Positions 20,229 through 45,928 of a DNA stretch of 64,000 nucleotides are shown here, in pieces. How positions within the stretch are numbered: position 1 is the first letter of the stretch; each line of letters starts with the position of its first letter. The DNA is from Sinomonas notoginsengisoli. Its GTDB lineage: Bacteria; Actinomycetota; Actinomycetes; Actinomycetales; Micrococcaceae. The notes under the pieces were generated by a model. The model made no database searches and was not told the DNA's origin. It saw nothing but the letters and a program-made list of their open reading frames with translations. The stretch lies in the NCBI RefSeq assembly GCF_021554725.1, contig NZ_JAIZDP010000014.1, forward strand, positions 1-64,000. Direction: 5' to 3'. The position numbers and the translations under genes are program-made.

Positions 20229-20255
20229 CTGGCAGCGAAGAACGACAGGAAGACC

Positions 20256-24207: not shown

Positions 24208-24209
24208 CG

Positions 24210-25232: not shown

Positions 25233-25250
25233 CACCACACATTCCCCATA

Positions 25251-28291: not shown

Positions 28292-29076
28292 TGGACGCAC
28301 CGCAGCTCGCAGGCAAGATCGTCCTGGTCAGCGGAGGAACCCAGGGACTGGGAGAAGCCGTCGCCCGACGCGCCGCCCTGCAGGGCGCCGAAGGCATCGT
28401 AGTGACGGGACGAAACGCCGCGGAGGGCGAGCGGGTGCGCACCGAGCTCGAATCGGCAGGCGCCCGGGCCCTCTACCTCAAGACAGACCTGGCGGACGTC
28501 GACCAGGCCCGGGCCTCGGTCAAGGACACCATCTCCGAGTTCGGGCGCCTCGACGCGGTCGCCAACTGCGCCGGGCTGACCACGCGAGGCACCTTCCTCA
28601 ACACCGAGCAGGAGCTGTTCGACGCGCACATCGCGATCAATCTGAGGGCACCGTTCTTCATCATGGCCGAGACCATCCGGCACCTGGTCAGCCGCGGCGC
28701 ACCGGGCAGCATCCTCAACGTCATCTCGATCGCGGAGCACGGCGGGCAGGACTTCCTTGCGCCCTACGTGGCCGCCAAGGCCGGGCTCGCCGGCGCCACC
28801 CGCAACGCCGCCCATGCCCACCGCTGGGACCGGATCCGGATCAACGGACTCGACATCGGATGGACGGCGACAGCGGGGGAGGCCGCGACCCAGAAGGCCT
28901 TCCACGGCGCCGGCGACGACTGGCTCGAGAAGGCCAGCGCCAGTGTGCCCATGGGCAAGCTCGGACAGCCCGACGAGATCGCCGAATTCATCGTGTTCCT
29001 GCTCTCGGACCGCAGCGGAGTCGTCACCGGGTCCGTCATCGACTGGGACCAGCAAGTCATCGGAGGACAAGAATGA
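28291..29076 (+). CDS. Short-chain dehydrogenase/reductase
   Basis: 261 residues, ATG sharing one base with the upstream stop. Cofactor motif GGTQGLGEAVA, NCAG, and the active site Ser (VISIAEHGG) with YVAAK. The C-terminus DWDQQVIGGQE is of the type seen in sugar- and cyclitol-associated SDRs. It probably oxidises a secondary alcohol of a cyclitol or sugar acid. The intermediate cannot be named from sequence. Confidence 0.9.
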   Translation: MDAPQLAGKIVLVSGGTQGLGEAVARRAALQGAEGIVVTGRNAAEGERVRTELESAGARALYLKTDLADVDQARASVKDTISEFGRLDAVANCAGLTTRGTFLNTEQELFDAHIAINLRAPFFIMAETIRHLVSRGAPGSILNVISIAEHGGQDFLAPYVAAKAGLAGATRNAAHAHRWDRIRINGLDIGWTATAGEAATQKAFHGAGDDWLEKASASVPMGKLGQPDEIAEFIVFLLSDRSGVVTGSVIDWDQQVIGGQE

Positions 29077-29966
29077 CCAGTACATCCATCACCGGCCGCA
29101 TCGCGGCTGCGCCGATCTCCTGGGGAGTCTGCGAGGTGCCCGGCTGGGGCTACCAGCTCGACGCCGAACGCGTCCTCGGCGAGATGTCCGAGCTTGGCGT
29201 CGTGGCCACTGAATTCGGCCCTGCCGGCTTCCTCCCGGCCGAGCCCGCGCCCCGCGCCGCCGTCCTCTCACGGCACGGCCTCCAGGCTATCGGCGGGTTC
29301 TTCCCCGTGATCCTGCACGACCCCGACAAGGACCCCATGGAAGCCGTCGCCCCCGAACTGGACGCCTACGAAGCCGCCGGCGCGGACATCATGGTCCTGG
29401 CCGCTGAGACCGGTGTCGCCGGCTACGACCAGCGCCACGAGCTGGACGAAGCAGGCTGGACCCTGTTCGGCCGGAACCTCGACCGGATCGTCGCGGCGGC
29501 CGCCGACCGCGGCATCACCGTCGTCGTCCATCCCCACGTCGGAACGATGGTGGAGTCCACCGAAGACGTCCAGCGGCTCCTGGAGGGCACGACCGCCAAG
29601 GTCTGCCTCGACACCGGCCACCTCCTCATCGGGGGAACCGATCCGAAGCAGCTCGTCCGAGAGCACGCATCGCGGATCGGGCACACCCACCTCAAGGACG
29701 TCCGGGCAGACCTCGCCCGGCAGGTCCAGAACGGGGAACTGACCTACACCGACGCAGTCAAGGCCGGAATGTACGTCCCCCTCGGGCAGGGCGACGTCGG
29801 CATCCGCGACATCGTCCTGGGCCTCCTCGACGCCGGCTACCAGGGCTGGTTCACCATGGAGCAGGACACCATCCTCGACCAGGCCCCAATCGGCGAAGGA
29901 CCTGTAGCGGACGTGCGCCAGTCCATCGCCTACCTGAAGTCGCTCGAGAAGGCAGCGGTATCGTGA
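29073..29966 (+). CDS. iolE: Inosose dehydratase (IolE)
   Basis: 297 residues. TIM-barrel protein with AAAPISWGVCEVPGWG at the N-terminus, the most characteristic IolE motif. Metal-site residues are in VVHPHVG, CLDTGHLL, HTHLKDV and FTMEQDT. It dehydrates scyllo-inosose to the diketone that IolD opens. Starts overlap the SDR stop by 4 bp. Confidence 0.93.
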   Translation: MTSTSITGRIAAAPISWGVCEVPGWGYQLDAERVLGEMSELGVVATEFGPAGFLPAEPAPRAAVLSRHGLQAIGGFFPVILHDPDKDPMEAVAPELDAYEAAGADIMVLAAETGVAGYDQRHELDEAGWTLFGRNLDRIVAAAADRGITVVVHPHVGTMVESTEDVQRLLEGTTAKVCLDTGHLLIGGTDPKQLVREHASRIGHTHLKDVRADLARQVQNGELTYTDAVKAGMYVPLGQGDVGIRDIVLGLLDAGYQGWFTMEQDTILDQAPIGEGPVADVRQSIAYLKSLEKAAVS

Positions 29967-30979
29967 CGGCCGTGCGCTGGGGCGTGCTCACCACCGCCCG
30001 GATCGCCCAGCATCGGTTCCTGCCCGCAGCAGCGAAGGCCGAGAACGCCGTCGTCGGCGCAATCAGCAGCCCGAGCGGCCGCGCAGAGGAGGTGGCCCGC
30101 AGGTTCGGCATCCCCAAGTCCTACCGCAGCCACGAGGAGCTCCTCGCCGACCCGGACATCGACGCCGTCTACCTCCCCTTCCCGAACAGCCTGCACGCCG
30201 ACTGGGCCGTCCGCTCCGCCGAGGCCGGCAAGCACGTCCTGTGCGAGAAGCCGCTCGTGGCCAGCACCGAAGACCTCCAACGGGTCCTCAGCGCCGCCGA
30301 TGAGGCGGGAGTGCGGATCATGGAGGCCTTCATGTACCGCTTCCACCCCCATCAGGGCAGGGCAAGGGAGCTCATCGCAGCAGGCCGCATCGGGCAGATC
30401 GTCTCAGTCCACGCCCGGTTCCACTTCGTGATGGACCGGCAGCCCCAAGAACCCCGCTTGCTCCCCGGCATGGACGGCGGTGCACTCAACGACGTCGGCA
30501 CCTACGGCGTCGATGCGCTGAACAGCGTCGTCGGCCGCCTGCCCGGCACGGTGTACGGCCGAGGGACCAGCTGGACAGACCCCGTCGACACCACGATGGC
30601 CGCAATCCTGGACTACGACGGAATCCTCGGAACCATCGACTGCGGTTTCGAAGGCCCGCGCAGCCGCAGCCACACCCTCCAGATCATCGGCACCGACGGG
30701 GCGATCACCTTGGACAAGGCCTTCGACCCGGACCCCGACGAAACCGCCACCCTGACGCTCTCCACCCGGGCAGGCGAAACCCAGACGTTCCCACTCGTCC
30801 ACGACAGCTTCAGAACCGAAATCGAAGCGTTCGGCGACCTGATCCGCACCCCGGGCCCCGTCATGCCGTTCCGCGAGCTCACCGAGCAGAACCTCATCGT
30901 GCGGAACGCCCTCCACGAATCCATGGTGACGGGGCTGCCCCAGCAGCTCGCCCTTGCCAGCCCGCTCAACGTCCAGTAG
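29963..30979 (+). CDS. Gfo/Idh/MocA family oxidoreductase
   Basis: 338 residues from a GTG overlapping the iolE stop. WGVLTTARIAQHRFLPAA, LCEKPLVAS and EAFMYRFHPHQ place it with the D-xylose/dihydrodiol dehydrogenase-like subgroup, distinct from the IolG-like enzymes here. GGALNDVGTYGVDAL provides the substrate helix. It is the fourth Gfo/Idh/MocA gene of the operon; such redundancy often reflects several stereoisomers or an oxidation followed by a reduction. Confidence 0.9.
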   Translation: MTAVRWGVLTTARIAQHRFLPAAAKAENAVVGAISSPSGRAEEVARRFGIPKSYRSHEELLADPDIDAVYLPFPNSLHADWAVRSAEAGKHVLCEKPLVASTEDLQRVLSAADEAGVRIMEAFMYRFHPHQGRARELIAAGRIGQIVSVHARFHFVMDRQPQEPRLLPGMDGGALNDVGTYGVDALNSVVGRLPGTVYGRGTSWTDPVDTTMAAILDYDGILGTIDCGFEGPRSRSHTLQIIGTDGAITLDKAFDPDPDETATLTLSTRAGETQTFPLVHDSFRTEIEAFGDLIRTPGPVMPFRELTEQNLIVRNALHESMVTGLPQQLALASPLNVQ

Positions 30980-30992
30980 CAGGAAGGAACCT

Positions 30993-31166
30993 CTGAGCCC
31001 CACCACCACAGCTGTCAAGACCATTCCGCACTTCCTCAATGGCGAGGAGACCCAGGGCGTCGGCGAGCGGACGCAGCCGGTCTTCAACCCGGCCACGGGC
31101 GAGCAGACCGGAGAGCTGCGCCTGGCCGACGCGGCTGACCTGGAGACCGCGGTGGCCCACGCTCTG
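30993..31166 (+). pseudogene. iolA: iolA/mmsA (methylmalonate-semialdehyde dehydrogenase), N-terminal stub
   Basis: After AAGGAAC, a CTG-initiated frame reads TTTAVKTIPHFLNGEETQ then RTQPVFNPATGEQTGELR, the unmistakable IolA/MmsA N-terminus. The similarity ends after about 58 residues near 31166 and the following sequence is unrelated. About 88 percent of the gene, including the catalytic Cys, is missing. The intact parent would have been the last gene of the operon, converting malonate semialdehyde to acetyl-CoA. Confidence 0.85.
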
Positions 31167-31551
31167 ACGACGCTCTTGACCAGCCCGGGCCGGTCCTGTT
31201 CGGACTGCGGTGCGGGCGGGAGCCGCGGTCGGCCATCCCGGCCGATCCCTCGGCCCGGTAGCTCCGCTAACCGAGACCGGGACAACGTCCCCGGACATCA
31301 CACCCAGGCGGTCATGATGGCAGTCGCGCCGATGCTTGGCCGGCAGCGTGCCAACACGGTGGTCTACGGGGCGCCCACCACAGCGATCGGGACTGGCCCG
31401 ACCTTTGAGGACGAGCTTCTGCGTCATGACGACCTCGTCGAGCAGCTCGGCGCCGCCTGCATCCACGAGCTCTGCTACTCCGTTGGTACCTCGGCAGTGC
31501 AGGGAAGATGACCAAGCAGGCCGTCGCGCGGCACTCCCGTTGGTACGCAAT
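31167..31551. other. Replacement DNA after the iolA break, unrecognised
   Basis: The + frame stays open to 31511 and contains a protein-like piece (VMMAVAPMLGRQRANTVVYG; FEDELLRHDDLVEQLG), but it has no start signal and no family I can recognise. It may be a fragment of another gene joined by the deletion. Confidence 0.35.
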
Positions 31552-31599: not shown

Positions 31600-32385
31600 T
31601 TAGGCAGTTCGGACGTCTTCGCGAAGCTGGGTCTCGATGTCGCGTTTGGCGTCTCGGAGTGCCCGCACCGCGCGGGCCTCGAGGGTGTCGCTGATGCGGA
31701 CGGCGGGGATGGCGACGTTGATCGAGCAGGGAGGGAAGGATGCCGGCAGGTCCAGGGCTGTCCCGATGCCGATGATGCCGGGGGTGTATTCCTCCCGGGA
31801 GTAGGCGATTCCAGTGGACCTCGCCTGCTCGAGCTCGTGGCGCAGGCGGGGAAGGTCGGTGACGGTGTGCGGTGTGACCTTCTCGAACTCCGTTGTGTGC
31901 AGGTAGTGATCGAGCTTGTCGTCGGTCATCTGCGCCAGGATGGCCTTCCCGCCTGAGACCGCGTGGAGGGGCGCGAGGTCGCCCTCGCGTAGGTGCGAGA
32001 CGAGCCGCTGGGTACTGGTGGCGGCGGCGATGACTTCGGTGTGCTGCCCGTGGAGCCTATTCAGGGCCGAGGATTCATTGATAGAGCGGGTCAGTGCCTG
32101 GAGCACGGGGAGAGAGACGTCGATGAGCTGCTGGACCCTCGCGGGCCGGTCCGAGAGCTGGGCGAGGGAGGGACCGAGCGTGTGAGTGCGGGTGGGCTCG
32201 TCGAACGTCAGGTATCCCCGCACGACCAAGGTCTTGAGGAGCTTGGTGAGGCTGCCTTTGGGGATCCGGAGCGAGGTTCCGATTTCGGCGTGTGTGAGCC
32301 CGTGGCCCGCGTCGGCGAGCAGCTCGAAGACGTCCAGGACCCGGTCGGCCGACTTGACCGCGGCAGTCTGCTCGGAGGCTGTCAT
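31600..32385 (-). CDS. IclR family transcriptional regulator
   Basis: 261 residues from the ATG at 32385 (GGAG upstream; an in-frame ATG at 32418 is less well placed). The winged helix is VLDVFELLADAGHGLTHAEI then PKGSLTKLLKTLVVRGYL. The effector domain ends with GIIGIGTALDLPASFPPCSI. IclR proteins commonly control aromatic and sugar catabolism from divergent promoters. The two palindromes in the 33.1-33.2 kb divergent gap are its probable targets. Confidence 0.92.
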   Translation of the reverse strand: MTASEQTAAVKSADRVLDVFELLADAGHGLTHAEIGTSLRIPKGSLTKLLKTLVVRGYLTFDEPTRTHTLGPSLAQLSDRPARVQQLIDVSLPVLQALTRSINESSALNRLHGQHTEVIAAATSTQRLVSHLREGDLAPLHAVSGGKAILAQMTDDKLDHYLHTTEFEKVTPHTVTDLPRLRHELEQARSTGIAYSREEYTPGIIGIGTALDLPASFPPCSINVAIPAVRISDTLEARAVRALRDAKRDIETQLREDVRTA

Positions 32386-32500
32386 CGTTCGCTCCAGACG
32401 GAAGTGCGGCGGCATCAAATCCTCATTCTAGGTGCCGGGTCCAACTTGCGGCCCGGCGAGCGGCCCGGGGGCGCGCCGTAGGGTGCGCCCCAGGGCTTCC

Positions 32501-33094
32501 TCATGACCCGGACAGCCAGCGGCTGCCGCGCTCGTAGAGGCTCTCGACCTCGGGGCCGGTGAGTCCGGGCATGTCCTTCTTCACGGGGTAGCCGATCCTG
32601 GACTGCGCGTAGGCCAGGTGGCGGTAGCCGCTGGGGAATCCCTGGAGCAGCTCGGGGTCCAGGCGCGGTCCCGGCCCCGGGGCGACGGGGGCGAGGCGGT
32701 CGGCCTCGTAGATGGGCTGGCGCAGCACCATCTTCCATTCCCCGTCCTGCTTCTCGAGGAAGTCGTAGAAGCGCCCGGTGCAGACGATGTCGCAGACCAC
32801 TCCCTCCACGTCGGCCCGCTGGGTGATGGTCATCTTCGTCTGGGCCACGGCACGGTCGCCGGCGACGTCGATCGAGCTCCCCCCGAGGAAATGCAGGATG
32901 CTCACGCCGCGGTTCCACCCGTCGATGCTCGCCTGGATGAACGCCTCGGCAGATCCCTGCGTCCAGGTGGCCATCATCTCGCCCTCTGGGGCCCACACCG
33001 TGCGGAACCGGTCCCAGTCCCCGGCGTCGCGCCACACGGCCCAGTTCTCCACAAGCTCGCGGATGCGGATCCGCTCAAGCATCAGATCTTCCAT
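32501..33094 (-). CDS. NTF2-like / SnoaL-like family protein
   Basis: 197 residues, AAGGAGTC before the ATG. IRIRELVENWAVWRDAGDWD opens the cone-shaped NTF2-like fold, followed by beta strands (GVVCDIVCTGRFYDFLEK; EWKMVLRQPIYEADR) and a non-standard C-terminal extension of about 60 residues. Family members include dehydratases, cyclases and isomerases acting on ring compounds. The gene is divergent from the 33.3-37.7 kb catabolic genes and shares their operator region. Confidence 0.82.
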   Translation of the reverse strand: MEDLMLERIRIRELVENWAVWRDAGDWDRFRTVWAPEGEMMATWTQGSAEAFIQASIDGWNRGVSILHFLGGSSIDVAGDRAVAQTKMTITQRADVEGVVCDIVCTGRFYDFLEKQDGEWKMVLRQPIYEADRLAPVAPGPGPRLDPELLQGFPSGYRHLAYAQSRIGYPVKKDMPGLTGPEVESLYERGSRWLSGS

Positions 33095-33115
33095 AGTCAG
33101 ACTCCTTCGTCGATA

Positions 33116-33232
33116 TAGTTTCCATATGAAAACTAGCTCAAGCCCCCGATGGCGGTCAAGACTGCAGAATTAGGCCGACTAGCGGTTGACGTGGGTCACA
33201 TCTTGCGGCAGAGTTGTTCCAGTATGGAAACA
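33116..33232. promoter_or_regulatory. Two matching palindromic operators in a divergent promoter
   Basis: TAGTTTCCATATGAAAACTA at 33116-33135 (2 positions off a perfect palindrome) and TGTTCCAGTATGGAAACA at 33215-33232 share the half-site GTTTCCATA/TATGGAAAC. One lies near the NTF2-like gene start, the other 83 bp before the barrel-protein start, as expected for a regulator of both directions, most likely the IclR at 31600. Confidence 0.65.
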
Positions 33233-33315
33233 GGATCTGTGGTTGGAGTGTCTCCGCCGAGGCGGGCAGGCTCCCTGAATGCCACAGGTCGACGACTGAT
33301 ATGGGAAGCGGAAAG

Positions 33316-33999
33316 ATGACTCTTCGTGGAACCGCCTTCATGGCTGTCTGGCACGACATCAAGGAAGAGGGCGAGACCGAGTACAACCAGTGGCACACGG
33401 TCGAGCACATGCCCGAGCGCGTGAGCACCCCGGGCTTCCTCGCCGGGCGGCGCTTCGTGGACTGGGGCTTGGACCGGTACCGCTACTTCACCCTCTACGA
33501 GGGGCGGGAGCTGGGGACCTTCTCCTCGGAGGAGTACCGCCGCCGGCTGAACAACCCGACCCCGTGGACGTTCCGGATGCAGCCCAACTTCCTGAACTTC
33601 GTCCGGTCCGCGTGCTCGACCGTCTCCACCGCCGGCTCCGGCACGGGCGGGGCCGTCGCCACGATCCGGGTGAACGTCTCGGACGAGGCCCGCTTCGAGG
33701 ACCTCGTGCGGCCGCAGTTGGAGCGGGCGCTCTCGCTCCACGGCATCTGCGGGGTCCACCTGGGGGCCGCACGGCCGGAGACGACCCACATCCGCACCAA
33801 GGAGACGGAGCTGCGGGCCGACACCGGGGAGGACGTCTTCGACGCTGTCGTGATGATCGAGGGCATCGGGCGCCGGGAGGTCGAGGCGGCGGTCAAGGAC
33901 CTCGCACCTGCCATCGGCAGCCTCGGCCCTGTCGGCTCGACCGAGACCGCCACCTACGACCTTGCCTACCTTCTGACCACCGAGGACCTGCAGCCATGA
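33316..33999 (+). CDS. Dimeric alpha/beta-barrel family protein
   Basis: 227 residues, GGAAGCGGAAAG before the ATG. Two ferredoxin-like halves: TAFMAVWHDIKEEGETEYNQW then HTVEHMPERVSTPGFLAGRR, and a weaker second half (GAVATIRVNVSDEARFED). HxxEHMPER with a Trp/Tyr pair resembles EthD- and DUF4286-type barrel proteins. Members act as small cofactor-free enzymes or accessory proteins in aromatic catabolism. The stop overlaps the dehydrogenase ATG. Role unassigned. Confidence 0.78.
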   Translation: MTLRGTAFMAVWHDIKEEGETEYNQWHTVEHMPERVSTPGFLAGRRFVDWGLDRYRYFTLYEGRELGTFSSEEYRRRLNNPTPWTFRMQPNFLNFVRSACSTVSTAGSGTGGAVATIRVNVSDEARFEDLVRPQLERALSLHGICGVHLGAARPETTHIRTKETELRADTGEDVFDAVVMIEGIGRREVEAAVKDLAPAIGSLGPVGSTETATYDLAYLLTTEDLQP

Positions 34000-34826
34000 C
34001 CCGCACACTGACCGGAACCACGAAGTTCTTCGGGATCATCGGCGACCCGATCGCGCAGGTCCGCGCCCCGGAGGTCTGGAACGCCCTGTTCGAACTCAAC
34101 GGCATAGACGCCGTCTGCGTGCCCCTCCAGGTCAGCCCCGAGCGGCTCGGGGACTTCCTCACCGGGTGCAGGGCGCTGAAGAACATGCACGGCCTCATCG
34201 TGACCATCCCGCACAAGCCGGCCGCGCTGGCCTCGGTGCAGCACCCGACGGAGCGGGCGGCCCGGGTCGGCACCGTTAACGTCATCAGGCTCAACGGGAC
34301 CGGAGAGTGGGAAGGGGACATCCTCGACGGGGTCGGCTTCGTCAACGGCCTCACGTCCAAGGGCCACGACCTCCAGGGCATGCGTGCCCTCGTCGTCGGC
34401 TCCGGCGGGGTCGGCTCGGCGATCGCCTTCGCGATAGCCGACGCCGGGGCCAAGGAAGTCGTCGTGGCCGACGTCCTGCCGAGCCGGGCGCAGGACCTCG
34501 CGGACCGGATCAGCGCCACCGGCGTCCCCTCGAGCGTGGGCGCGGCGGCCGCTGCGGCCTTCGACCTCGTCGTCAACGCCAGCCCCATCGGCATGAAGGC
34601 CGATGACCCGCTCCCGATCGACTGCGACGGCCTCTCCCCGGCCACGATCGTGGCCGACGTCGTGGTCCATCCGCGCATGACCAGGCTGCTCACCCTGGCC
34701 GCCGACCGCGGCTGCCCCGTCCAGCCCGGATTCAACATGATGGACTACCAGCTCGCGACCATGGCCGAGTTCTTCGGCTTCGGGCCCGGCGACTGGAGCC
34801 CGGAGACCACCGCACGGCTCGGCTGA
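33996..34826 (+). CDS. Shikimate-dehydrogenase-family oxidoreductase, altered substrate motif
   Basis: 276 residues. It has the AroE fold: catalytic Lys in VTIPHKPAAL, Asp in ILDGVGF, cofactor loop VVGSGGVGSAIAF and C-terminal QPGFNMMDYQLA. The N-terminal substrate motif, normally GxPIxHSxSP, reads GDPIAQVRAPE, so both shikimate-binding Ser residues are replaced. This points to a different cyclic polyol or oxo-acid substrate than shikimate. It is embedded in a catabolic operon, not a biosynthetic one. Confidence 0.9.
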   Translation: MTRTLTGTTKFFGIIGDPIAQVRAPEVWNALFELNGIDAVCVPLQVSPERLGDFLTGCRALKNMHGLIVTIPHKPAALASVQHPTERAARVGTVNVIRLNGTGEWEGDILDGVGFVNGLTSKGHDLQGMRALVVGSGGVGSAIAFAIADAGAKEVVVADVLPSRAQDLADRISATGVPSSVGAAAAAAFDLVVNASPIGMKADDPLPIDCDGLSPATIVADVVVHPRMTRLLTLAADRGCPVQPGFNMMDYQLATMAEFFGFGPGDWSPETTARLG

Positions 34827-34899
34827 GACCCCGCCTTCCCTCCCCCCTGCAGAACCCCGTCACCAAAGCCAGTGCACCCACGTGTCAAGGAGGACACCA

Positions 34900-36273
34900 G
34901 TGACATCGCTATCCACCGCGGCCGCCTCGGCGGTCAGATCGTCCATGAAGAAGGCGACGATCCGGATCGTGCCCTTCATCCTGCTCATGTACATCATGGC
35001 CTTCGTCGACCGGGTCAACCTCGGCTTCGCCACCAACGAGCTCAAGGTCCACGCCGGCGTCTCCACGGCCGCCTACGCCCTGGGCGCCTCGCTGTTCTTC
35101 GTCACGTACTGCTTCCTCGAGGTACCCAGCAACGTCATCATGCACAAGGTCGGCGCCCGCATCTGGATGGCCCGCATCATGATCTCCTGGGGCCTGATCT
35201 CGGCAGCGACCATGTTCGTGAACAACGAGGCCTGGTTCTACGTGCTGCGCCTCCTGCTCGGCGCCGCCGAGGCCGGGTTCTTCCCGGGCATCATCCTCTT
35301 CCTGACCTACTGGTTCCCGGACGAGTACCGCGGCAGGGTCACCGGGCTCTTCTACTTCGGCGCACCCCTGGCGTTCATCTTCGGTGCTCCCGTGTCAGGG
35401 ATGTTCCTGAACATGGACGGCGTCGCCGGCCTGTGGGGCTACCCGTGGATGTTCCTCATGGAGGGCCTGGGCGCCACCGCCGTAGGGATCGCAGCCCTCT
35501 TCGTCCTCTGCGACGCGCCCCGGAAGGCCAAGTGGCTCACCGAGCCCGAGAAGAAGGCCCTCACCGCCGTCCTGGACGCCGAGAACGCGGCGAAGAACCA
35601 GCACGGCCACACCAGCATGCTCAGCGCGATGAAGGACCGCACAGTCCTGTACTTCGGCCTCGTCTTCGCCCTCGTGCAGATGGGCGTCTCCGTCGCCCTG
35701 TTCTTCCTCCCCGCCCAGATCTCGGCCATGATGGGCAAGGGCGCCAACCCCGTCGTCACAGGCTTCGTCGTCGCCATCCCGTGGACGTGCGCGCTCTTGG
35801 CCACCTACTTCGTCCCGCGTTACGCGGAGAAGGTCCGCCGCTACGGCATCATCGGCGGCGCCAGCCTCATCCTCGCCGCCGTGGGCATGCTCGTCTCGGC
35901 CGGAACCACCCCCGTCGTGGCCGTCGTCGCGCTCTGCCTCGCCGTCGCCGGGCTATGGGCGTGCCAGCCGATCTTCTGGACCCTCCTGACGAACTACAAG
36001 ACCGGCGCCGCAGCCGTGACGGGCATCGCGCTGGTGAACACCATCGCCAACATCGGCAACTTCTTCGCCCCCAACGTGAAGGTCTGGGCCGACCAGAGCT
36101 TCAACTCCGGCTTCGGCGGCCTGATCGTCCTGGCCCTTGTCACCGCTCTCGCCGGCCTGATCTACATCCCCCTCGGCAAGCACAAGGGCGTCCGCGCCAC
36201 AGCCGGGGAGGCACCCGTCGTCGTTCCCAACCAGGATGACGTCGCCTCCCACGGAGCAAGCCAGGATGCCTGA
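34900..36273 (+). CDS. MFS transporter, anion:cation symporter (ACS) type
   Basis: 457 residues with 12 predicted membrane segments. FVDRVNLGFATNEL, GAAEAGFFPGIILFLTYWF and a long cytoplasmic loop after helix 6 (APRKAKWLTEPEKKAL) are typical of ACS transporters of aromatic acids, hexuronates and quinate-like anions. The start is the GTG at 34900 with AAGGAGG 5 nt upstream, in preference to the GTG at 34882. It presumably imports the substrate of the neighbouring enzymes. Confidence 0.92.
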   Translation: MTSLSTAAASAVRSSMKKATIRIVPFILLMYIMAFVDRVNLGFATNELKVHAGVSTAAYALGASLFFVTYCFLEVPSNVIMHKVGARIWMARIMISWGLISAATMFVNNEAWFYVLRLLLGAAEAGFFPGIILFLTYWFPDEYRGRVTGLFYFGAPLAFIFGAPVSGMFLNMDGVAGLWGYPWMFLMEGLGATAVGIAALFVLCDAPRKAKWLTEPEKKALTAVLDAENAAKNQHGHTSMLSAMKDRTVLYFGLVFALVQMGVSVALFFLPAQISAMMGKGANPVVTGFVVAIPWTCALLATYFVPRYAEKVRRYGIIGGASLILAAVGMLVSAGTTPVVAVVALCLAVAGLWACQPIFWTLLTNYKTGAAAVTGIALVNTIANIGNFFAPNVKVWADQSFNSGFGGLIVLALVTALAGLIYIPLGKHKGVRATAGEAPVVVPNQDDVASHGASQDA

Positions 36274-37123
36274 GCAGGGCAGGGTCCTCTCGCTCGCCCA
36301 CCTCTCGGTCGTGGACGCGCACCCGCTCGAGCTGATCGACGCGGCCGTCGCCGGGGGCTTCAACGCCATCGGCCTGCGGATCGTCCCGCCGATGCCCACC
36401 GACGAGATCATCCCGGTCGTCGGGGACGAGAAGCTGCTCGCCGAGGTCATCCGCAAGAAGGACGACTGCGGCATCATGATCCTGGACACCGAGGCCCTCT
36501 GGCTCACCCCCGAGATCCGGCCGAAGGACCTGGAGCCGGTCCTGGAGACCTCTGCCCGGCTCGGGGCGACCAACATCCTCGTCGTCGGCAACGACCCGGA
36601 CCCCGGACGGCAGCAGGCCAACTACGCGGAACTGTGCGACCTCGCCGCCGCGCACGGACTCACGGCCGCGGTCGAGTTCATCCCCTACTGCGCCACCGGG
36701 ACCCTCGCCGGCGCCCAGGACCTCGTCCTGGGCGCCGGCAGGCCCAACGCCAAGTTCCTCATCGACGTCCTGCACCTGATGCGCTCCGGTGACGGCCCCG
36801 AGGCGCTCTCGGCCCTGGTCCCAGAGGCCTTCGCCTACTGCCAGCTCGCCGACCTCGCCGGCCCCCGGCCGCAGACCACCGCCCTCCTGCGCCAGGAGGC
36901 CCGCACCGACCGCCGCTTCCCCGGAGAGGGCGAGGCGCCCCTGGCGCAGATCCTCGACGCGCTCCCTCCCGGCCTCCCGCTCGGGGTCGAGGCTCCCGTG
37001 CTCAAGCACCGCGACCTGCCCGTCGTCGAACGCGGAAGGCTCTGCGGCGAGGCCACCAGGGCGTTCCTCGATGCCTACGACTCCGGCCGCAGGGCAGCCC
37101 AGACTGCCCCGGCCGACCACTGA
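36266..37123 (+). CDS. TIM-barrel sugar phosphate isomerase/epimerase-like protein
   Basis: 285 residues from the ATG at 36266, overlapping the MFS stop; an in-frame ATG at 36236 is further inside the MFS gene. Xylose-isomerase-like barrel with LSLAHLSVVDAHPLELIDAA, metal-ligand candidates in TAAVEFIPY, KFLIDVLHLMRSG, CQLAD and GVEAP. The family includes dehydratases, epimerases and beta-elimination enzymes. Beside a shikimate-dehydrogenase relative, a dehydratase acting on the oxidised ring is plausible, by analogy with dehydroshikimate dehydratases. Confidence 0.87.
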   Translation: MPEQGRVLSLAHLSVVDAHPLELIDAAVAGGFNAIGLRIVPPMPTDEIIPVVGDEKLLAEVIRKKDDCGIMILDTEALWLTPEIRPKDLEPVLETSARLGATNILVVGNDPDPGRQQANYAELCDLAAAHGLTAAVEFIPYCATGTLAGAQDLVLGAGRPNAKFLIDVLHLMRSGDGPEALSALVPEAFAYCQLADLAGPRPQTTALLRQEARTDRRFPGEGEAPLAQILDALPPGLPLGVEAPVLKHRDLPVVERGRLCGEATRAFLDAYDSGRRAAQTAPADH

Positions 37124-37151
37124 CCAGACCGACCAACCGGGAGAACCCGCC

Positions 37152-37728
37152 ATGGCCACCGACCTCGCCACCGACACCCTGACGGGGGAGGTGATCCGCA
37201 GCTTCGCTGAAACCCCCGACGAGCGGTTCCGGCGCGTCCTGACCAGCCTGACCACCCACCTGCACGCCTTCGTCCGGGAGGTCGCGCCCTCGATCGAGGA
37301 ATGGGAACAGGCGATCGACTTCCTCGCACGCACCGGCAAGACCTGCACCGACGCACGGCAGGAGTTCATCCTCCTCTCCGACGTCCTCGGCGTGTCGATG
37401 CTCGCGGAGACCGTCAACGACGCCGAGACCCACACCGTCGTCCTCCCGCACGCCGTCGCCTACAAAGCCCCGCAGCGCTCCGGGTCATCGCCGCCCTCCA
37501 GAGGGTCACCGGCACCGAGGGCCCCGCCGCGCACCTGCGCGAACTGGGCCTCGAACTCGCCACCCCCCGATCCCCGCGCGACCTCGGCCGACCGAGGAGG
37601 ACGTAGAGGCCGCGGTCGAACTAGCGCCCCGCAACCCATACGGCAACCCGCGGGAAGCCACCCCCGAAGGGATCCTGGGACTCCTCAGCGCAGCGCTCAA
37701 TGGCGAACCCGTCACGTCGAATGAATGA
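37152..37728 (+). pseudogene. Fusion relic: intradiol dioxygenase N-terminus joined to maleylacetate reductase C-terminus
   Basis: Residues 1-89 ([34 protein letters not shown]) match the N-terminal helical domain of hydroxyquinol 1,2-dioxygenases. At residue 90 the frame switches to THTVVLPHAVAYKAP, a hallmark of maleylacetate reductases. Two later frame changes are needed to recover ALRVIAALQRVTGTEGP and NPYGNPREATPEGILGLL before a stop at 37728. An internal deletion of two adjacent genes followed by decay explains this. Intact copies of both lie at 39351 and 41400. Confidence 0.88.
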
Positions 37729-38039
37729 CTGGCCGAAGGGCATGGCCATGCGCCAGGAAATGGCGAAGGCACCTCCTCCCGGTGCACCTGCCACTGGACG
37801 GCTGAGACGTCCGCAGTCTTTTGGGGGCCGGACTCGCCCTTCGTCAGGCCAAGTCCTGCTTAGAAAAGAACCATCCTCGATCATAAGAACCCGCGCTGTG
37901 TAGGGAGACCCACACCCGCGGGATCACAAGTTCCTACGTTGGTCCCGAGAACCAAGATGCGTGGCAATCCAGAGTTGACGCGCGGGGGCCCGCCCAATCG
38001 AAGTGGAGCTCAAGTGAGTGGTGGCTCGAACCGGGAGGA

Positions 38040-38640
38040 TCGCCGTGGCGGCAGACCTGGTCGCTGCGCCTCGACGCGGGCGAAGGCTTTGAACGCGCCG
38101 TGGATCAAGATCGGAACAAGCTTCGGTCCTGCCCTTTCCGCGGTGGACCCGTTGGCTGCCCCCTGCGGAGGCTAGCCGACGAGGCTGCTGCAGCTGGGAC
38201 GAGGGTTGCACTCGAGCCGCTGCGGTTCGCCATGATCGCCTTCCCTGCCCCAGGGCGCGGACCTGATCAGGAAGGCCGACGACAAGGCAGCCGGTCTCAT
38301 CGTCGACTCTTGGCACGTCTTCCGGGCCGGAACTGCCCTTGAGGACTTCGAGGCAGTGGTGGCGCCGCCCCAGATGGTCTTCGGCGTCGAGCTCAGCGAT
38401 GCCGATGCCGAGCCTCGCGGAACGCTCTTCGAAGACACCCGAGACAACCGCCGTTACCCCGGCCAGGGCGAGCGGGACGTTGCAGGCTTCATCACGAGCA
38501 TGCGGCGCCTGGGTTGGGAGGGGTCCAGGGGCGTGGAGATGCTCTCTCGGCCGAGCATCGGAGCATGCCCTTGGGAGAGGGACTGCAGCGGGCGCGACAC
38601 GCAGCGTTGAGCTGCTTCGGCAAGACCGACGCGGCGACGG
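38040..38640 (+). pseudogene. TIM-barrel isomerase/epimerase relic
   Basis: Pieces in different frames read LADEAAAAGTRVALEPLRFA, LIRKADDKAAGLIVDSWHVF, then EDFEAVVAPPQMVFGVELSD and RRYPGQGERDVAGFI, and finally EHRSMPLGEGLQRARHAAL. Together they trace the C-terminal two thirds of a xylose-isomerase-like TIM barrel like the intact gene at 45925. At least three frame changes are needed and the N-terminus is missing. Confidence 0.75.
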
Positions 38641-38695
38641 GTGAACGGAAGCCCCACTGGCGCGGGGCGGGCTCCTTGCCTGCTGGTCCACCTTG

Positions 38696-38739
38696 AAGGG
38701 GAAGGTCCCGGTCTATCCGAGACCGGGTCCTTTCCCTTG
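38696..38739 (+). terminator. Hairpin terminator
   Basis: GGTCCCGGTCT / AGACCGGGTCC with flanking AAGGGGA / TTTCCCTT gives a long stem with one mismatch and a 6-nt loop. It probably ended the transcript of the adjacent TIM-barrel relic. Confidence 0.65.
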
Positions 38740-38909
38740 ATGCCCTCCAGATAGTGGCGGTCTCCACAAGCAACGCCTGGCGCGTGGCCAAGCCGCTTTG
38801 CCCGTGCGCTTGTGGTCGCTGAACTGCTGCTTGAGTACGGCGCCGTCCTTCCAAGAGCACCCCAGCCCGTCCTCGCGTCCTCTGTGTGGGACCGGAGGAG
38901 CATGGCGGC

Positions 38910-39116
38910 CTAGGGTGCCGGGAGCGGGGATGTCCCCTCGCTCTTGAGGGTTGTCCCCACTGCCCACAGTTCGGGGTCGACCTCGTTGGCCAGCACGCGC
39001 ACTGAAGCCAGTGGGACGTCCAGAGTGCTGGAGACCGCCTTGGCGACCTCTCGCAGGCAGTCCTGGACTGCACCTCGATCTCGTCCGGCGACCATGTTGA
39101 TGGTGACTATGGGCAT
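38910..39116 (-). CDS. 4-oxalocrotonate tautomerase family protein
   Basis: 68 residues, starting MPIVTINMVAGRDRGAVQ; Pro-2 becomes the catalytic N-terminal proline after Met removal. The following helix and ASVRVLANEVDPELWAVG strand fit the small tautomerase fold. The C-terminus (SEGTSPLPAP) is slightly longer than usual. It lies downstream of the dioxygenase gene on the same strand and may isomerise an enol in aromatic breakdown. Ribosome-binding signal is weak. Confidence 0.8.
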   Translation of the reverse strand: MPIVTINMVAGRDRGAVQDCLREVAKAVSSTLDVPLASVRVLANEVDPELWAVGTTLKSEGTSPLPAP

Positions 39117-39350
39117 TTTGTCTCGATTCGTTGTGGCCTCGAAGGTCGCGGTGCGGTGTGCTGGCGAGGCGGTGGTCCGGCGGTTGTCCGGGAGGGGCGG
39201 GCTGTCCTAAGACGTCCAGCGGACAACAGACGCGGTGATGGCCGACGTGGCCACCCGGCTGTGACCGGATGCGGGGACCGTGAAGCGCGGACGACCCGGC
39301 GCGGCGGGCGTGGACCGGCCCTGGCCGTCAAGGGGACCGGGTCTGGTGAC

Positions 39351-40283
39351 CTAGGCCGCTGCCGGGGCGAGGACGATGTCGAACCGCGTCCTGGCCCAGG
39401 TGCTGTCGCCAAGATCTCGTCCGTCCGGAGTCGGGGTGCCTGCGGGCTGCTGGACGAAGTCCTTGATGAGCGATTCCTTGACGCCGAAGACGGTGTCGTA
39501 CTTCAGCAGTTCGTCGCCGCGGACGAAGATGTGCGTGACCAGGGTGCGCAGCCCCGGCTTGGTGACCATGAAGTGCAGGTGGGAGGCGCGCATCGGCGAC
39601 CGTCCGACCGCGTCCAGCATCTTGCCGACGGGTCCGTCGTGAGGGATCGGGTAGGGCGTGGGAGTCAGTCCCCAGAACCGGTAGTTCCCGTGTTCGTCGC
39701 TGAACAGGTGTGCGCGGCCGGAGACGCGGTCGTCGGTGTACTGCACGTCGTAGAAGCCGTCCTCGTCGGCTTCCCACACCTCGATGCGGGCCCCCGGCAC
39801 GGGGTTGCCGTCGGTGTCGGTCACGGTGCCCTCCACCCAGCAGGGCTGTCCCGGGGCGCCGCCCGCGATGTCTCCGCCATTGGCGATCTCCGGGGCGTCC
39901 TCGACGAAGAACGGCCCGAACACCGTGGCCTCTGTGGCGTCGCCGTAGGCCTCGTTGTTGACGTTGATGGTCTGCATCGAGGCTCCGAAGACGTCGGAGA
40001 GCAGGATGAACTCCTGGCGCCGGTCGTCGGTGATGTGGCCCACTGCGGTGAGGAACTCGATGGCCTTGTTCCACTCATCCTCGGTCAGCCGCACGTCGCG
40101 GATGAAGGCGTGCAGGTGCTTCACGAGCGACTGCATCAGCTGCTTGAGCCGCGGGTCCTCGCAGTTCTCGAAGGATCGCAGCACGTTCTGAACGAGTCGT
40201 TCTTCGACGGCCTGCTGGGCTTCGGAAACTGGCTGCGAGCCTTGCGCGCCTCCGGTGTGGGGCACTCGAGTCTGCTCAATCAT
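39351..40283 (-). CDS. Hydroxyquinol (intradiol) 1,2-dioxygenase
   Basis: 310 residues from the ATG at 40283 with AAGGAAT upstream (an in-frame ATG at 40355 is extra). The N-terminal helical dimerisation domain ([19 protein letters not shown]) is followed by the beta-sandwich with Fe(III) ligands Tyr in FYDVQY, Tyr in GNYRFWG and two His in ASHLHFMV. Cleaves a 1,2-dihydroxylated ring between the hydroxyls. Pairing with maleylacetate reductase favours hydroxyquinol over catechol. Confidence 0.92.
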
Positions 40284-40335
40284 GGTGGTATTCCTTGCTG
40301 TGGCGTGGGAGTCGGTGTCGTTGGGTCCTGCAGGG

Positions 40336-41274
40336 TCAGGGACGGGATGCGTCATCGAGCTGGCGCATCTGGGCTTCGCTCAACTCAATATCCATCGACT
40401 GCAGGAGGGGCGCCAGCTGATTGGCATTCCTGGCGCTGGCGATGGGGGCGACGACACCGGGCTGAGCGGCCAGCCAGGCCAGGGCAACCGCGGCGGGTTC
40501 GACGGACTGCTCTGCAGCCACCTGCGTGAGGGCACCCAGGATCGCCTCTCCCCGAGGTGTGAGGTACTTGGAGGCGTCGCCGGCGCGGGGGCTGTCGACC
40601 GCCTGGCCCACCGCGTATTTTCCGGTTAGGAATCCGTGGGCGAGGGAGTAGTAGGGCATCACAGCCAGGCCGTGCTCGCGAGCCAGGGGGAGGATGTCGG
40701 CCTCGATTTCGCGTTCTGCGAGGCTGTACTGCGGCTCTACAGCGACGGGGGCGTGGAACTGTTCCCGCTCGGTGATCTTCAGCCACTCGCGGATGCGGTC
40801 GGCGGAGTAGTTGGAGATGCCGATGGTTCGCACCTTGCCCTGATCGACGAGCTCGGACATCGCGGCGATGCTCTCCTCGAGCGGCGTCTCGGGGTCGTCG
40901 AAGTGGGCGTAGTAGACGTCGATGGCATCAACTCCGAGGCGGGTGAGCGAGCCGTCCACGGCCTTGCGGATCGTGGCAGGCGCCATCCCCTGCAGATCAG
41001 GGTGGTGGCTGACCTTGGTGGCGATCACGACGTCGTCCCGGGTACCGCGGCTGGCCAGCCACTTGCCGATGACGGACTCGGATTCGCCTCCGGAGTTGCC
41101 CGGTGCCCAGAACGAGTACGAGTCTGCGGTGTCCAGGAAGTTGCCGCCCCCGGCGATGTAGGCGTCGAGGATTGTGTGGGACGTCCTGGTATCGGCGGTC
41201 CAGCCGAAGACGTTGGTGCCGAGCGCGAGTGGGGACACGTCAATGCCTGGGGTGATGGTTCTATTGGCGGGCAA
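40336..41274 (-). CDS. Aldo/keto reductase
   Basis: 312 residues from a TTG at 41274 with GAAGGTAG upstream. The catalytic tetrad is visible: Asp and Tyr in [11 protein letters not shown], Lys in VIATKVS and His in VYYAHFDD. It belongs to the YajO/general stress AKR branch. It sits between dioxygenase and maleylacetate reductase genes with gaps of 52 and 125 bp, so probably shares their transcript. It may reduce or oxidise a cyclic precursor; substrate not deducible. Confidence 0.9.
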
Positions 41275-41399
41275 GGGTCTACCTTCTGGATGGTGTTCGG
41301 GGTCGAGGGGTGGCAGAGGCGGCGGGGCCGCGCGGGGAAGGGACCGGAGCCCTTCTCCGCGCGGGACCTGCCGGCCGGCTGCCTGTGGTGGCGGGTGCC

Positions 41400-42512
41400 T
41401 CAGGCGCCCGCTGGTGAGTTCTGCTTCTGTCCGGCCCAGACGGGGTTGGCGCTGGGCCGCTGCCCGCCCCAGGCCGCGTACAGGATGCCCGTGACGTCGT
41501 CATAGGCGATGGGCCGGGGGTTGCCGTAGGAGCGGCTGGTCGCCTCTTCGGCGATCCGGGGGATGTCCTCTTCCTTCATGCCGAGTTCGGCCAGGGTGCG
41601 CGGGGCGCCGAGCTCCCCGGCGATCTCCCAGAGCCGGTCCGCGGGGTCTTCCACCCCGCCGAGTGCCCGCGACAGGGCAGCGACAGCGTCGGGGACCGCC
41701 GGCTGGTTGAAGGCAAGGGCGTGGGGGAGAACGACGGTGTGGGTCTGGGCATGCGGGAGGTTGAGCGTGCCGCCTAGGGCGTGGCACAGCTTGTGGTGCA
41801 GCGACATCGTGGTGGCTCCGAGGCAGGCACCGCACAGCCAGGACCCGTACAGGGCGTTGCTGCGGGCCTCGCGGTCGGAGCCGTCGGCGACGATCGCCGG
41901 CAGGGCGGTTGCCAAGGCCCTCACGCCCTCCTCTGCCATCAGGGAGATGATCGGCGTGGCGTCGGGGGCGTAGAGCGCCTCCACCGCATGCGCGATGGCG
42001 TTGATGCCGCTGGTGACCGACATCGGCACGGGCAGGGTGGCCGTGAGCTGGGGGTCGTACACGACGCTGCGCGGCAGCACTCGCGGATCACGGCCGGTTT
42101 CCTTGCGTCCGTCGGTGGTCAGGCCCCACACGGGAGTCATCTCCGAGCCGGCATAGGTGGTGGGGACAGCGACGATGGGGAGCCCGTGCTTGAGTGCGAT
42201 GGCCTTGCCGAGGCCGATGGCCGAGCCGCCGCCGACGGCTACACAGCCGTCGGCGCCGACACGGGCCGCCTCGTCGCTGGCGCGCTGGGCCACCTCGTTG
42301 GGCACGTGCATGACCGCTTCGGCGAGGACGCCGACGCTGCGGTCACCGAGGGCTTCGGCCACCTGCCGGCCTGTGGCCTCCTGCTCAGGGGAACACAGGA
42401 CCAGAACGCGGCGGAGACCGATCTGGTCGAGTTCCTCGGGGAGCGTCGACAGGGAGCCGGCGCCGAACCGCACGCGCATGGGGAGGGCTTCATAGACGAA
42501 CTTACGAGTCAT
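41400..42512 (-). CDS. Maleylacetate reductase
   Basis: 370 residues from the ATG at 42512, AGAAGGAAG upstream. Iron-alcohol-dehydrogenase fold with NAD(P) loop GGGSAIGLGKAIAL, VPTTYAGSEMTPVWG, and the His-rich active site MSLHHKLCHALGG plus THTVVLPHALA. YGNPRPIAYDDV is a family C-terminal signature. Reduces maleylacetate, the hydroxyquinol cleavage product, to 3-oxoadipate, which enters central metabolism. Confidence 0.94.
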   Translation of the reverse strand: MTRKFVYEALPMRVRFGAGSLSTLPEELDQIGLRRVLVLCSPEQEATGRQVAEALGDRSVGVLAEAVMHVPNEVAQRASDEAARVGADGCVAVGGGSAIGLGKAIALKHGLPIVAVPTTYAGSEMTPVWGLTTDGRKETGRDPRVLPRSVVYDPQLTATLPVPMSVTSGINAIAHAVEALYAPDATPIISLMAEEGVRALATALPAIVADGSDREARSNALYGSWLCGACLGATTMSLHHKLCHALGGTLNLPHAQTHTVVLPHALAFNQPAVPDAVAALSRALGGVEDPADRLWEIAGELGAPRTLAELGMKEEDIPRIAEEATSRSYGNPRPIAYDDVTGILYAAWGGQRPSANPVWAGQKQNSPAGA

Positions 42513-44845: not shown

Positions 44846-45928
44846 ATGGAACCGATCGTCGTAGGACTTCTGGGAATCACCCACCCGCACGCCTCTGCCC
44901 GGGTGCGCGCGCTTCGCGAGATCGAGGGCGTGGAGGTCGTGGCCGCCGCCGACACGGACCCGCGCCTCACGTACTTCACGGACAAGTACGACATGGAGGC
45001 CCGCAGCATCGACGAGGTGCTCCAGGACGACCGCATCAACGCGGTCATGGTGCACTCCAAGAGCAAGGACATGGTCCCGCATGCCGTGCGTGCCCTTGCC
45101 GCCGGCAAGTCCGTGGTCGTGGAGAAGCCCGGCGGTGGAACCGTGGAGGACCTCGAGCACCTCGCCGAGGCAGAGGCCAAGGCCGGGCCCGGGCAGGTCG
45201 TCCAGGTGGGCTACAACGTGCGTCTGGCCCCGTCCATCACCAGGGCGAAGGAGCTGATCGAAGCCGGGCTGATCGGGGAAGTCGTCTCCGTGTCCGCCCG
45301 CGGCGCTGCCCTGGTGGGGGAGCACCGCACCGAGCACCTCAACCAGGCCGCGGACATGGGCGGCGTCCTGTGGATCCTCGGCTGCCACATGCTCGATTCT
45401 CTGGTTCGCGTGTTCGGGGCGCCCGAGTCCGTCAACGCGCGCGTGCACAAGTCCGCCAGGCTCTCGGACGAGTCCAGCCGTGAGGACTCCGCGGCCGTCC
45501 TGCTCAACTACCCCGACATGTCCGCGACGTTCAGCTTCGACGGACACGATCCTCTGGAGTGGTTCGAAACCTCCCGCATCACCGTGTACGGCACCCGCGG
45601 GATGATCGAGGCGGGCGTCCTGCCCCAGACCCTGCGCGTATACGTGGACTCGGACAGGGCCGGATGGCCGGCAGGCTGGACGGAGTGGACCCAGAGCTAC
45701 TTCACACCGCCATTTGCGCGCACCGAGGCCAACAAGTTCTCCGAGCTCCCCGAGCTTGAGAACATCAGCAACTTCCACACCGAGATGCGCGGATGGGTGG
45801 ACAGCATCCGCACCGGCGCCCCGGTCGTGGCCCCTGTCTCCGACGCCCTCGCAGTCGCGCGCATCGTCGACGCCTGCTACCGCTCGGAGAAGGAGCAGGG
45901 CGCCAGCGTCGAGGTGGGCTCCGCATGA
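44846..45928 (+). CDS. Gfo/Idh/MocA family oxidoreductase
   Basis: 360 residues, AGGAGAC before the ATG. GLLGITHPHASARVRAL is an unusual variant of the N-terminal nucleotide loop, lacking the common GxGxxG spacing. VVEKPGGGTVED and VGYNVRLAPSI are standard, and GGVLWILGCHMLDSLVR gives the catalytic helix. Adjacent to a TIM-barrel gene, it fits the oxidise-then-eliminate logic of 3-keto-sugar pathways such as levoglucosan breakdown. Substrate unknown. Confidence 0.88.
   Translation: MEPIVVGLLGITHPHASARVRALREIEGVEVVAAADTDPRLTYFTDKYDMEARSIDEVLQDDRINAVMVHSKSKDMVPHAVRALAAGKSVVVEKPGGGTVEDLEHLAEAEAKAGPGQVVQVGYNVRLAPSITRAKELIEAGLIGEVVSVSARGAALVGEHRTEHLNQAADMGGVLWILGCHMLDSLVRVFGAPESVNARVHKSARLSDESSREDSAAVLLNYPDMSATFSFDGHDPLEWFETSRITVYGTRGMIEAGVLPQTLRVYVDSDRAGWPAGWTEWTQSYFTPPFARTEANKFSELPELENISNFHTEMRGWVDSIRTGAPVVAPVSDALAVARIVDACYRSEKEQGASVEVGSA

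Follow-up and report, generated by a model that had tools for sequence, protein, structure and literature searches.

A divergent gene unit of Sinomonas notoginsengisoli with an AGDC1-like putative decarboxylase may lead from a quinate-type ring acid to hydroxyquinol

We analysed a stretch of 64,000 nucleotides of Sinomonas notoginsengisoli DNA (hereafter the window; contig NZ_JAIZDP010000014.1), which is nearly all of its contig (64,170 bases). It contains a divergent gene unit in which the genes for an NTF2-fold protein and an IclR-family regulator lie on the minus strand to the left. On the plus strand to the right are the genes for an alpha+beta-barrel protein (the barrel protein), a relative of shikimate dehydrogenase (SDH), a major facilitator superfamily (MFS) transporter and a xylose-isomerase-like TIM barrel, followed by a broken hydroxyquinol 1,2-dioxygenase (HQD) and maleylacetate reductase (MAR) pair (Table 1). 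The stop codon of the barrel-protein gene overlaps the SDH start (ATGA). An earlier note, made from the sequence of this DNA, had listed these parts and proposed that they aromatise a cyclic polyol to hydroxyquinol. A gene-by-gene check of the window found the unit to be real with its parts as listed, among them an SDH relative with an altered substrate motif (Q-V-R-A-P in place of the H-S-x-S-P of other members), a tautomerase nearby, and an original HQD/MAR end, which survives as a fused, frameshifted remnant at 37.15-37.71 kb.

Table 1. Features of the unit and of the neighbouring minus-strand operon (window coordinates)
Feature	Position	Strand	Evidence
IclR-family regulator	31600..32418	-	Pfam IclR_C 9e-31; NCBIfam BhcR 2e-35, PcaR/PcaU/PobR 3e-30, both below cut-off
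NTF2-fold protein, AGDC1-like putative decarboxylase, proposed hydroxyquinol-forming step	32501..33094	-	PDB 6w54 4e-33, 7jmr 7.5e-26
Two-domain alpha+beta-barrel protein, ABM/anthrone-oxidase-like fold	33316..33999	+	AlphaFold2 predicted local distance difference test (pLDDT) 90.4; 5f9p Z 17.0
SDH relative, QVRAP motif, S-x-S serines lost	33996..34826	+	Pfam Shikimate_dh_N 5e-19; PDB 4k28 6.5e-48
MFS transporter, HpaX / D-galactonate transporter type	34882..36273	+	Pfam MFS_1 4e-36
Xylose-isomerase-like TIM barrel, Lmo2234/QuiC/IolI fold	about 36266..37123	+	profile matches 2g0w 1e-20, 3u0h 3e-14, 1i60 1e-13, 5hmq 6e-11
Pseudogene, HQD N-terminus fused to MAR C-terminus	37152..37710	+	Pfam Dioxygenase_N 7e-27; tblastn junction
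4-Oxalocrotonate-tautomerase-like protein	38910..39116	-	Pfam Tautomerase 1.1e-7
Intact HQD, separate operon	39351..40355	-	PDB 1tmx 3e-148 vs catechol 1,2-dioxygenase 2e-32
Aldo/keto reductase (AKR)	40336..41274	-	Pfam Aldo_ket_red 2e-71
Intact MAR	41400..42512	-	PDB 3jzd 3e-126, 3w5s 7e-102, 3hl0 2e-99

The NTF2-fold protein had been taken for a dehydratase or isomerase. We found that it instead resembles fungal decarboxylases, since among PDB entries it matches AGDC1 and PPP2 at the E values of Table 1 and scytalone dehydratases only at 0.07-0.09, and the dehydratase role was set aside. According to the AGDC1 report (PMC7862292), from which the statements about AGDC1 here are taken, W35, R39, D40, T60, W61, H86, Y150 and Q192 have roles in catalysis or binding. 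The corresponding residues of the window protein are W18, R22, D23, T43, W44, H68, Y129 and Q164. We found that eight of nine active-site or substrate-contact residues are identical in all 92 rows of an alignment of the window protein with 91 relatives, and the same eight in 12 of 12 rows comprising the window and 11 plasmid loci found by tblastn. Thus the His-Asp pair, the Trp clamp and the carboxylate-binding Arg are kept (W18, R22, D23, W44, H68), as are the contacts to the catechol hydroxyls (T43, Y129, Q164). AGDC1 Y146, which contacts the third gallate hydroxyl, is replaced by Arg in every row of both alignments; PPP2 itself has Val at this position. AGDC1 R87 is Phe in the bacterial protein. 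H68, F69, L70, R125 and Y129 lie inside the peptide patterns that retrieved the 80 loci described below, so their invariance is partly a product of selection, and W18, R22, D23 and W44 lie outside those patterns.

The most plausible reading of the NTF2 protein is thus not a dehydratase but a bacterial protein related to AGDC1, the cofactor-free gallate decarboxylase, and by its residues it would work like AGDC1. We keep it out of the AGDC1 family because the K+ site, essential in AGDC1, is absent. If the protein is a decarboxylase, the immediate precursor of hydroxyquinol would carry a carboxyl group on its ring, and polyol acids like quinate become a likelier source than inositol. Of the quinate- or cyclitol-like substrates put forward in the earlier note, the quinate-like acids are therefore favoured. 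Inositol and inosose were set aside, as the carboxylate-binding Arg of AGDC1 is kept and a decarboxylase would require a carboxylated ring. UbiX- and UbiD-like decarboxylase genes were seen by eye near the NTF2 gene of an actinomycete bin (L024, 9881-20584).

The lower pathway for hydroxyquinol, HQD plus MAR, is present in the window both as intact copies and as the remnant inside the unit. From 37152 the remnant encodes about 88 HQD residues and continues in the same reading frame with MAR, entered at about its residue 250; a frame change follows, and the MAR C-terminus ends near 37.71 kb (tblastn). To judge from its reading frames, it is the product of a deletion plus a frame change, and the unit's own HQD and MAR are dead. 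In its HQD part, the remnant resembles the HQDs that are linked to NTF2 in other bacteria (GVSML). The intact HQD is instead of the 1tmx type and its 15 nearest plasmid relatives among the matches listed are all actinobacterial (65-77% identity). The gene order of the intact group is MAR, AKR, HQD, tautomerase. By strand and HQD lineage, the intact pair is a separate operon and no continuation of the remnant pair. A further intradiol dioxygenase relative (30% identity) lies on a different contig of the genome. A remnant of a second TIM barrel was also seen (38170-38620, plus strand), which is 41-56% identical, in pieces, to the TIM barrel at 45793-46815.

Relatives of the NTF2 protein are encoded in at least 591 stretches in one scan, from which 80 loci were kept, 50 of them with full 10 kb flanks. 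Genes around them were listed with a home-made codon score that may miss or add genes, associations were judged by Fisher tests, which ignore relatedness, and a tblastn search for HQD/MAR remnants covered the window and nine of the 80 loci. We found an SDH relative in 9 of the 50 full-flank loci, always within 3.5 kb of the NTF2 gene, and all nine also carry a TIM barrel (p 9e-8) and an IclR regulator (p 8e-7) within 10 kb. These loci come from Bradyrhizobium (five), Roseomonas, Bosea, Mesorhizobium and Burkholderia, and their gene orders differ. Bradyrhizobium rifense (L062) has IclR-NTF2-barrel-SDH-MFS-TIM in one direction, the same front-end set as the window. With the same families found together in Actinomycetota, Alpha- and Betaproteobacteria, the families of the unit co-occur more than by chance. 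The closeness of the TIM barrel (p 0.085) and of the barrel protein (p 0.054) to NTF2 was below significance, and the barrel protein was unassociated with HQD or MAR (p 0.73 and 1).

Of the 50 full-flank loci, 11 have HQD and 7 have MAR, in every case within 3.5 kb of NTF2, and MAR accompanies HQD (p 2e-4). On plasmids of Sinorhizobium meliloti Rm41 and S. americanum, the genes for NTF2, HQD, MAR, TIM and the barrel protein are accompanied by dehydroquinase II and enolase-type genes, and NTF2, MAR, HQD, TIM and IclR genes lie together in Caballeronia NK8. Calystegine catabolism, located on the S. meliloti plasmid pRM41A, was considered as a lead and given up. The S. meliloti dioxygenase that is linked to NTF2 belongs to the HQD clade (1tmx 2e-84, 3n9t 1e-80, 8r2x 6e-80, vs 2e-33 for catechol enzymes). 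The remnants of L087 and L096 (HQD and MAR) and of L048 (MAR) sit behind NTF2, where L072 (Bradyrhizobium AUGA SZCCT0283) has both genes intact. Loss of HQD/MAR in these three loci and in L061, like that in the window, looks like repeated decay.

Two further candidates were not retained as support. All nine SDH-bearing genomes have HQD relatives and MAR relatives somewhere (MAR at 48% identity or more in eight), but since HQD relatives (E 1e-40) are found in 80 of 80 Bradyrhizobium genomes, unit-bearing ones included, a second HQD/MAR set elsewhere in a genome says nothing. In Embleya (L019), NTF2, HQD and MAR occur with two TIM barrels, but the AroE-type gene there shows no more than 27% identity and has retained the serines. 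In Bradyrhizobium, a second HQD/MAR set was also noticed (L170, 6683-10954), with, by eye, an amidohydrolase and a hydroxyisobutyrate-dehydrogenase-like gene in between.

The front-end proteins were compared residue by residue and by predicted structure. The SDH relatives keep the catalytic Lys and Asp of AroE in 10 of 10 rows and the late Gln in nine (Ala in L084). The roles of these three residues are known from AroE-family enzymes, in which the S-x-S serines bind the substrate carboxylate. Both serines are replaced in all 10 rows and also in L178, the SDH relative of a Rhizobium quinate-type cluster (43% identity to that of the window). Rows own_L002 to own_L004 of the SDH and Gfo/Idh comparison that includes L178 were left out as nonsense alignments, probably of the wrong strand. 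The TIM barrel model (pLDDT 93.7) is tied between Lmo2234 (Z 29.4), QuiC (5hmq; Z 28.9, root-mean-square deviation (rmsd) 2.9, 262 aligned) and IolI (Z 28.8), so that no single xylose-isomerase-like family is closest. The metal ligands of the AsbF/QuiC 3-dehydroshikimate dehydratases are Glu, Asp and Glu (PMC9324987). E133, D163 and E238 of the TIM barrel (numbering from 36278) are invariant in 14 rows; the first two align with 5hmq and the third lies beyond the alignment. The best NCBIfam models for the MFS transporter are HpaX (TIGR02332, 6e-72) and the D-galactonate transporter (1e-65), both below cut-off.

For the barrel protein, neither Pfam nor NCBIfam gave a family at E 0.001, and there was no PDB sequence match at E 10. 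The structures most similar to its model are sulfur oxygenase reductase (Z 17.4, rmsd 2.9, 211 aligned), the anthrone-oxidase-like 5f9p (rmsd 3.1, 206 aligned) and PenE (Z 16.1, rmsd 3.1, 197 aligned), and W12, W26, H27, H31, E34 and R35 are invariant in 8 rows. The modelled fold is compatible with cofactor-free oxidation, and the protein is a possible candidate for a second oxidation in loci that lack an IolG-like enzyme. Such an IolG-like dehydrogenase, of one family, is present in five SDH loci (L048, L061, L069, L072 and L084) and in the short L068; mutual identities are 41-47%, except in two closely related pairs (99% and 81%). The NTF2 clusters of Sinorhizobium and Bosea also encode a KstD-like FAD protein. 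That of S. meliloti (L009) matches KstD 7p18 at 4e-80 and, below cut-off, the NCBIfam models for ketosteroid dehydrogenase and 4-oxocyclohex-2-ene-1-carboxylate dehydrogenase (1e-121). These are families of saturated-ring enzymes, here beside the decarboxylase and partly beside HQD.

Taken together, these observations suggest that the unit may be the upper half of a pathway by which a carbocyclic, quinate- or shikimate-type polyol acid is taken up and converted to hydroxyquinol, a reading to which we give slightly less than an even chance. The HQD-clade dioxygenase together with MAR indicates hydroxyquinol as the product, the decarboxylase a carboxylated precursor, and the front end a polyol ring. 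The MFS carrier would import the polyol acid, the SDH relative would oxidise a ring hydroxyl to a ketone, and the metal-dependent TIM barrel would remove water beta to the ketone. A second two-electron oxidation would bring the ring to the aromatic level, by the IolG-like dehydrogenase or the KstD-like desaturase in relatives and, in the window, perhaps by the barrel protein. The NTF2 protein, without a cofactor, would then strip CO2, its His-Asp pair protonating the carboxylate-bearing carbon to give hydroxyquinol, which HQD and MAR would convert to 3-oxoadipate. The function of the lost pair could be taken over by the neighbouring HQD/AKR/MAR operon on the minus strand. By our own arithmetic, quinate (C7H12O6) yields hydroxyquinol (C6H6O3), CO2 and H2O by two oxidations, one dehydration and one decarboxylation. 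The families, residues, recurring association and remnants are read from sequence, and from them we infer the substrate, the order of steps and every reaction. Of the earlier proposal, the alicyclic substrate and the recurring dehydrogenase/TIM/HQD-MAR set are retained, and the dehydratase role of NTF2 is given up.

A broader claim, which we hold more tentatively still, is that this would be a second bacterial aromatisation of quinate- or shikimate-type acids. It would bypass protocatechuate and run via a trihydroxybenzoate or a dienone-carboxylate, with a new NTF2 decarboxylase subfamily free of the K+ site leading to hydroxyquinol, and its halves would be exchanged freely between lineages.

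Several observations weigh against the route to hydroxyquinol. The K+ ligand of AGDC1, E88, whose E88A mutant is dead, is Leu in 92 of 92 and 12 of 12 NTF2 rows. Taken alone, the loss of the S-x-S serines would argue against an acid substrate. Among all 80 NTF2 loci, HQD is found in only 12 and MAR in 8, and the associations of SDH with HQD (p 0.09) and with MAR (p 0.10) are below significance. Four of the nine SDH loci come from Bradyrhizobium and share a single arrangement, a kinship that the Fisher tests disregard. Only four of the nine have an HQD match within 10 kb, that of L061 being frame-broken; among the other five, L087 and L096 hold HQD and MAR remnants, L048 a MAR remnant, and L062 and L069 neither. 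Bosea (L065) has HQD, but the MAR relatives of its genome are only distant (34-36%). The window is without a close copy of the relatives' Gfo/Idh dehydrogenase (its own Gfo/Idh proteins are 26-33% identical), and the best NCBIfam model for the S. meliloti FAD protein is the unspecific 'FAD-dependent oxidoreductase' (3e-239, above cut-off). SDH relatives also lie with altronate dehydratase, dihydrodipicolinate-synthase-family and FAH genes in Paracoccus. Finally, some NTF2-MAR-HQD sets lie among aromatic-looking genes, as in Rhodococcus R138 and Agrobacterium 15-1187. Because of these sets and the p value of 0.09 for SDH with HQD, the front and back halves may be independent modules that frequently occur together.

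The main rival is a route through gallate and pyrogallol, which we consider unlikely. Here dehydroshikimate would be oxidised to gallate by the dehydrogenases, the NTF2 protein would form pyrogallol, and the HQD-like enzyme would cleave it. Quinate fits the balance above if its tertiary hydroxyl is kept; loss of that hydroxyl would lead to gallate and pyrogallol at an unchanged overall stoichiometry. Gallate to pyrogallol is moreover AGDC1's own reaction (PMC7862292), and dehydroquinase II is encoded in two Sinorhizobium stretches and one Mesorhizobium stretch with NTF2. However, the dioxygenase falls in the HQD clade and goes with MAR, which has no obvious place after pyrogallol, and the residue that contacts the third gallate hydroxyl in AGDC1 is the invariant Arg, although this position lies inside one of the search patterns that retrieved the 80 loci.

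Rather less probable is that NTF2, MAR and HQD form a module for an aromatic acid beside separate sugar or cyclitol genes (SDH, TIM and barrel protein), which the IclR regulator and their location join accidentally. Consistent with this, the Rhodococcus R138 set (L012, 3598-18443) lies with P450, ferredoxin, aminomethyltransferase and folate genes, a context that suggests a methylated substrate. The Agrobacterium set (L014, 2921-12152) lies beside FAD oxidoreductase, cupin protein and maleylpyruvate-isomerase-type genes. Inositol-type catabolic genes also flank the window unit (18798-30979: aldehyde dehydrogenase, HpcH/HpaI aldolase, several Gfo/Idh, a TIM barrel, and IolD above its curated cut-off). 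In contrast, SDH adjoins NTF2 in 9 of the 50 loci in several gene orders and always with TIM, and no hydroxylase gene was found among the genes of the unit.

Less probable again is a route without any aromatisation of a ring, in which a sugar acid, open-chain or lactone, would be the substrate of the SDH relative, the TIM barrel and the barrel protein. The loss of the S-x-S serines fits this, as do the Paracoccus genes and the pairing of an SDH relative with a barrel-protein gene in Paraburkholderia sprentiae. However, NTF2, HQD and MAR would be unaccounted for, and the SDH relative of the Rhizobium quinate-type cluster is without the same serines. With altronate dehydratase and FAH genes beside the SDH relatives of L177 and L179, the SDH family also serves sugar-acid-looking pathways.

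The least probable is ordinary conversion of quinate or shikimate to protocatechuate, with NTF2 merely decarboxylating protocatechuate to catechol: SDH, TIM and MFS resemble a Listeria operon, the TIM barrel has QuiC among its structural neighbours and AGDC1 also accepts protocatechuate (PMC7862292), but HQD and MAR are left unexplained, no dehydroquinase or PcaGH was found among the genes of the unit (to which the search for dehydroquinase I and PcaGH was confined), and the single dehydroquinase II that the genome was found to encode lies on a different contig (C31).

The unit is probably a horizontal acquisition, since the barrel protein and NTF2 are rare in the family of the organism. The barrel protein occurs in 5 of 295 genomes of the family and 2 of 396 of the phylum, and NTF2 in 8 of 295 of the family (own genome counted in each case); the best other matches in the family are 33% and 56% identical, respectively. 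Four regions around barrel-protein or NTF2 matches in the phylum and family contained no SDH or TIM at E 1e-5. The base composition of the unit does not stand out.

Two side observations concern the surroundings of the unit. A short ORF at 30954-31511 has, by eye, an aldehyde-dehydrogenase-like start and looks like a further scar, with only a sub-threshold adenylosuccinate-lyase match in Pfam. IS110-like and IS256-like transposase genes were seen by eye at 12035-13198 and 62294-63529.

Our data suggest a gene set, present with altered gene orders in several soil bacteria unrelated to one another, whose products probably convert a cyclic plant acid such as quinic acid into hydroxyquinol and then degrade it. 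We found no bacterial route from quinate to hydroxyquinol in the part of the literature covered, from which subscription papers were mostly absent, so this is weak evidence of novelty. If the proposal is true, the hydroxyquinol exit is a new branch in the microbial recycling of quinate-type acids, the large bacterial NTF2 family gains a testable activity, and cofactor-free decarboxylases become available for making 1,2,4-benzenetriol.

Several known systems share parts with the unit. A Listeria operon (L129) has in common with the window an Lmo2234-type barrel, an SDH relative and MFS carriers side by side, the first two about 2 kb apart in Listeria. However, its SDH serines are kept, no NTF2, HQD or MAR was seen in it, an OYE-like flavin reductase (named by eye) is added, and the Listeria NTF2 relative (28-30% identity) lies outside the operon, which has a role in quinate or shikimate use. 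The QuiC/QsuB-type route from quinate to protocatechuate, represented by Rhizobium acidisoli (L178), shares with the NTF2 clusters the pair of an SDH relative and an IolG-like dehydrogenase, and a related TIM barrel. A QuiC-type gene (model 1e-200, below cut-off), dehydroquinase II, a Gfo/Idh gene (39-48% identity to those of five NTF2 loci), the SDH relative and pca genes are together there. In contrast to the proposed route, the exit is via protocatechuate and the pca genes, and no NTF2 decarboxylase, HQD or MAR is annotated there.

Cyclohexanecarboxylate aromatisation by ChcC1/ChcC2 resembles the S. meliloti cluster in its KstD/ChcC2-like FAD protein (the ChcC2 model being below cut-off). 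The known route ends at 4-hydroxybenzoate, and there is no KstD/ChcC-type desaturase among the genes of the window unit, the relative being that of S. meliloti. The usual entries to hydroxyquinol are the hydroxylation of resorcinol or a phenol, whereas the entry proposed here is decarboxylation of a ring acid. A fungal route is similar in that its hydroxyquinol comes from an acid that quinate can feed: PhyA hydroxylates protocatechuate to hydroxyquinol (PMC12388069). It differs in using a protocatechuate hydroxylase, and no FAD hydroxylase was seen in the window unit.

The closest known relatives for the proposed decarboxylation step are fungal AGDC1 and PPP2 (6w54, 7jmr), with which the NTF2 protein shares sequence similarity, the His-Asp pair, the Trp clamp, the carboxylate Arg and the catechol-binding Thr, Tyr and Gln. 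Unlike AGDC1, it is bacterial, has Leu, Phe and Arg in place of E88, R87 and Y146, and is partly linked to HQD and MAR.

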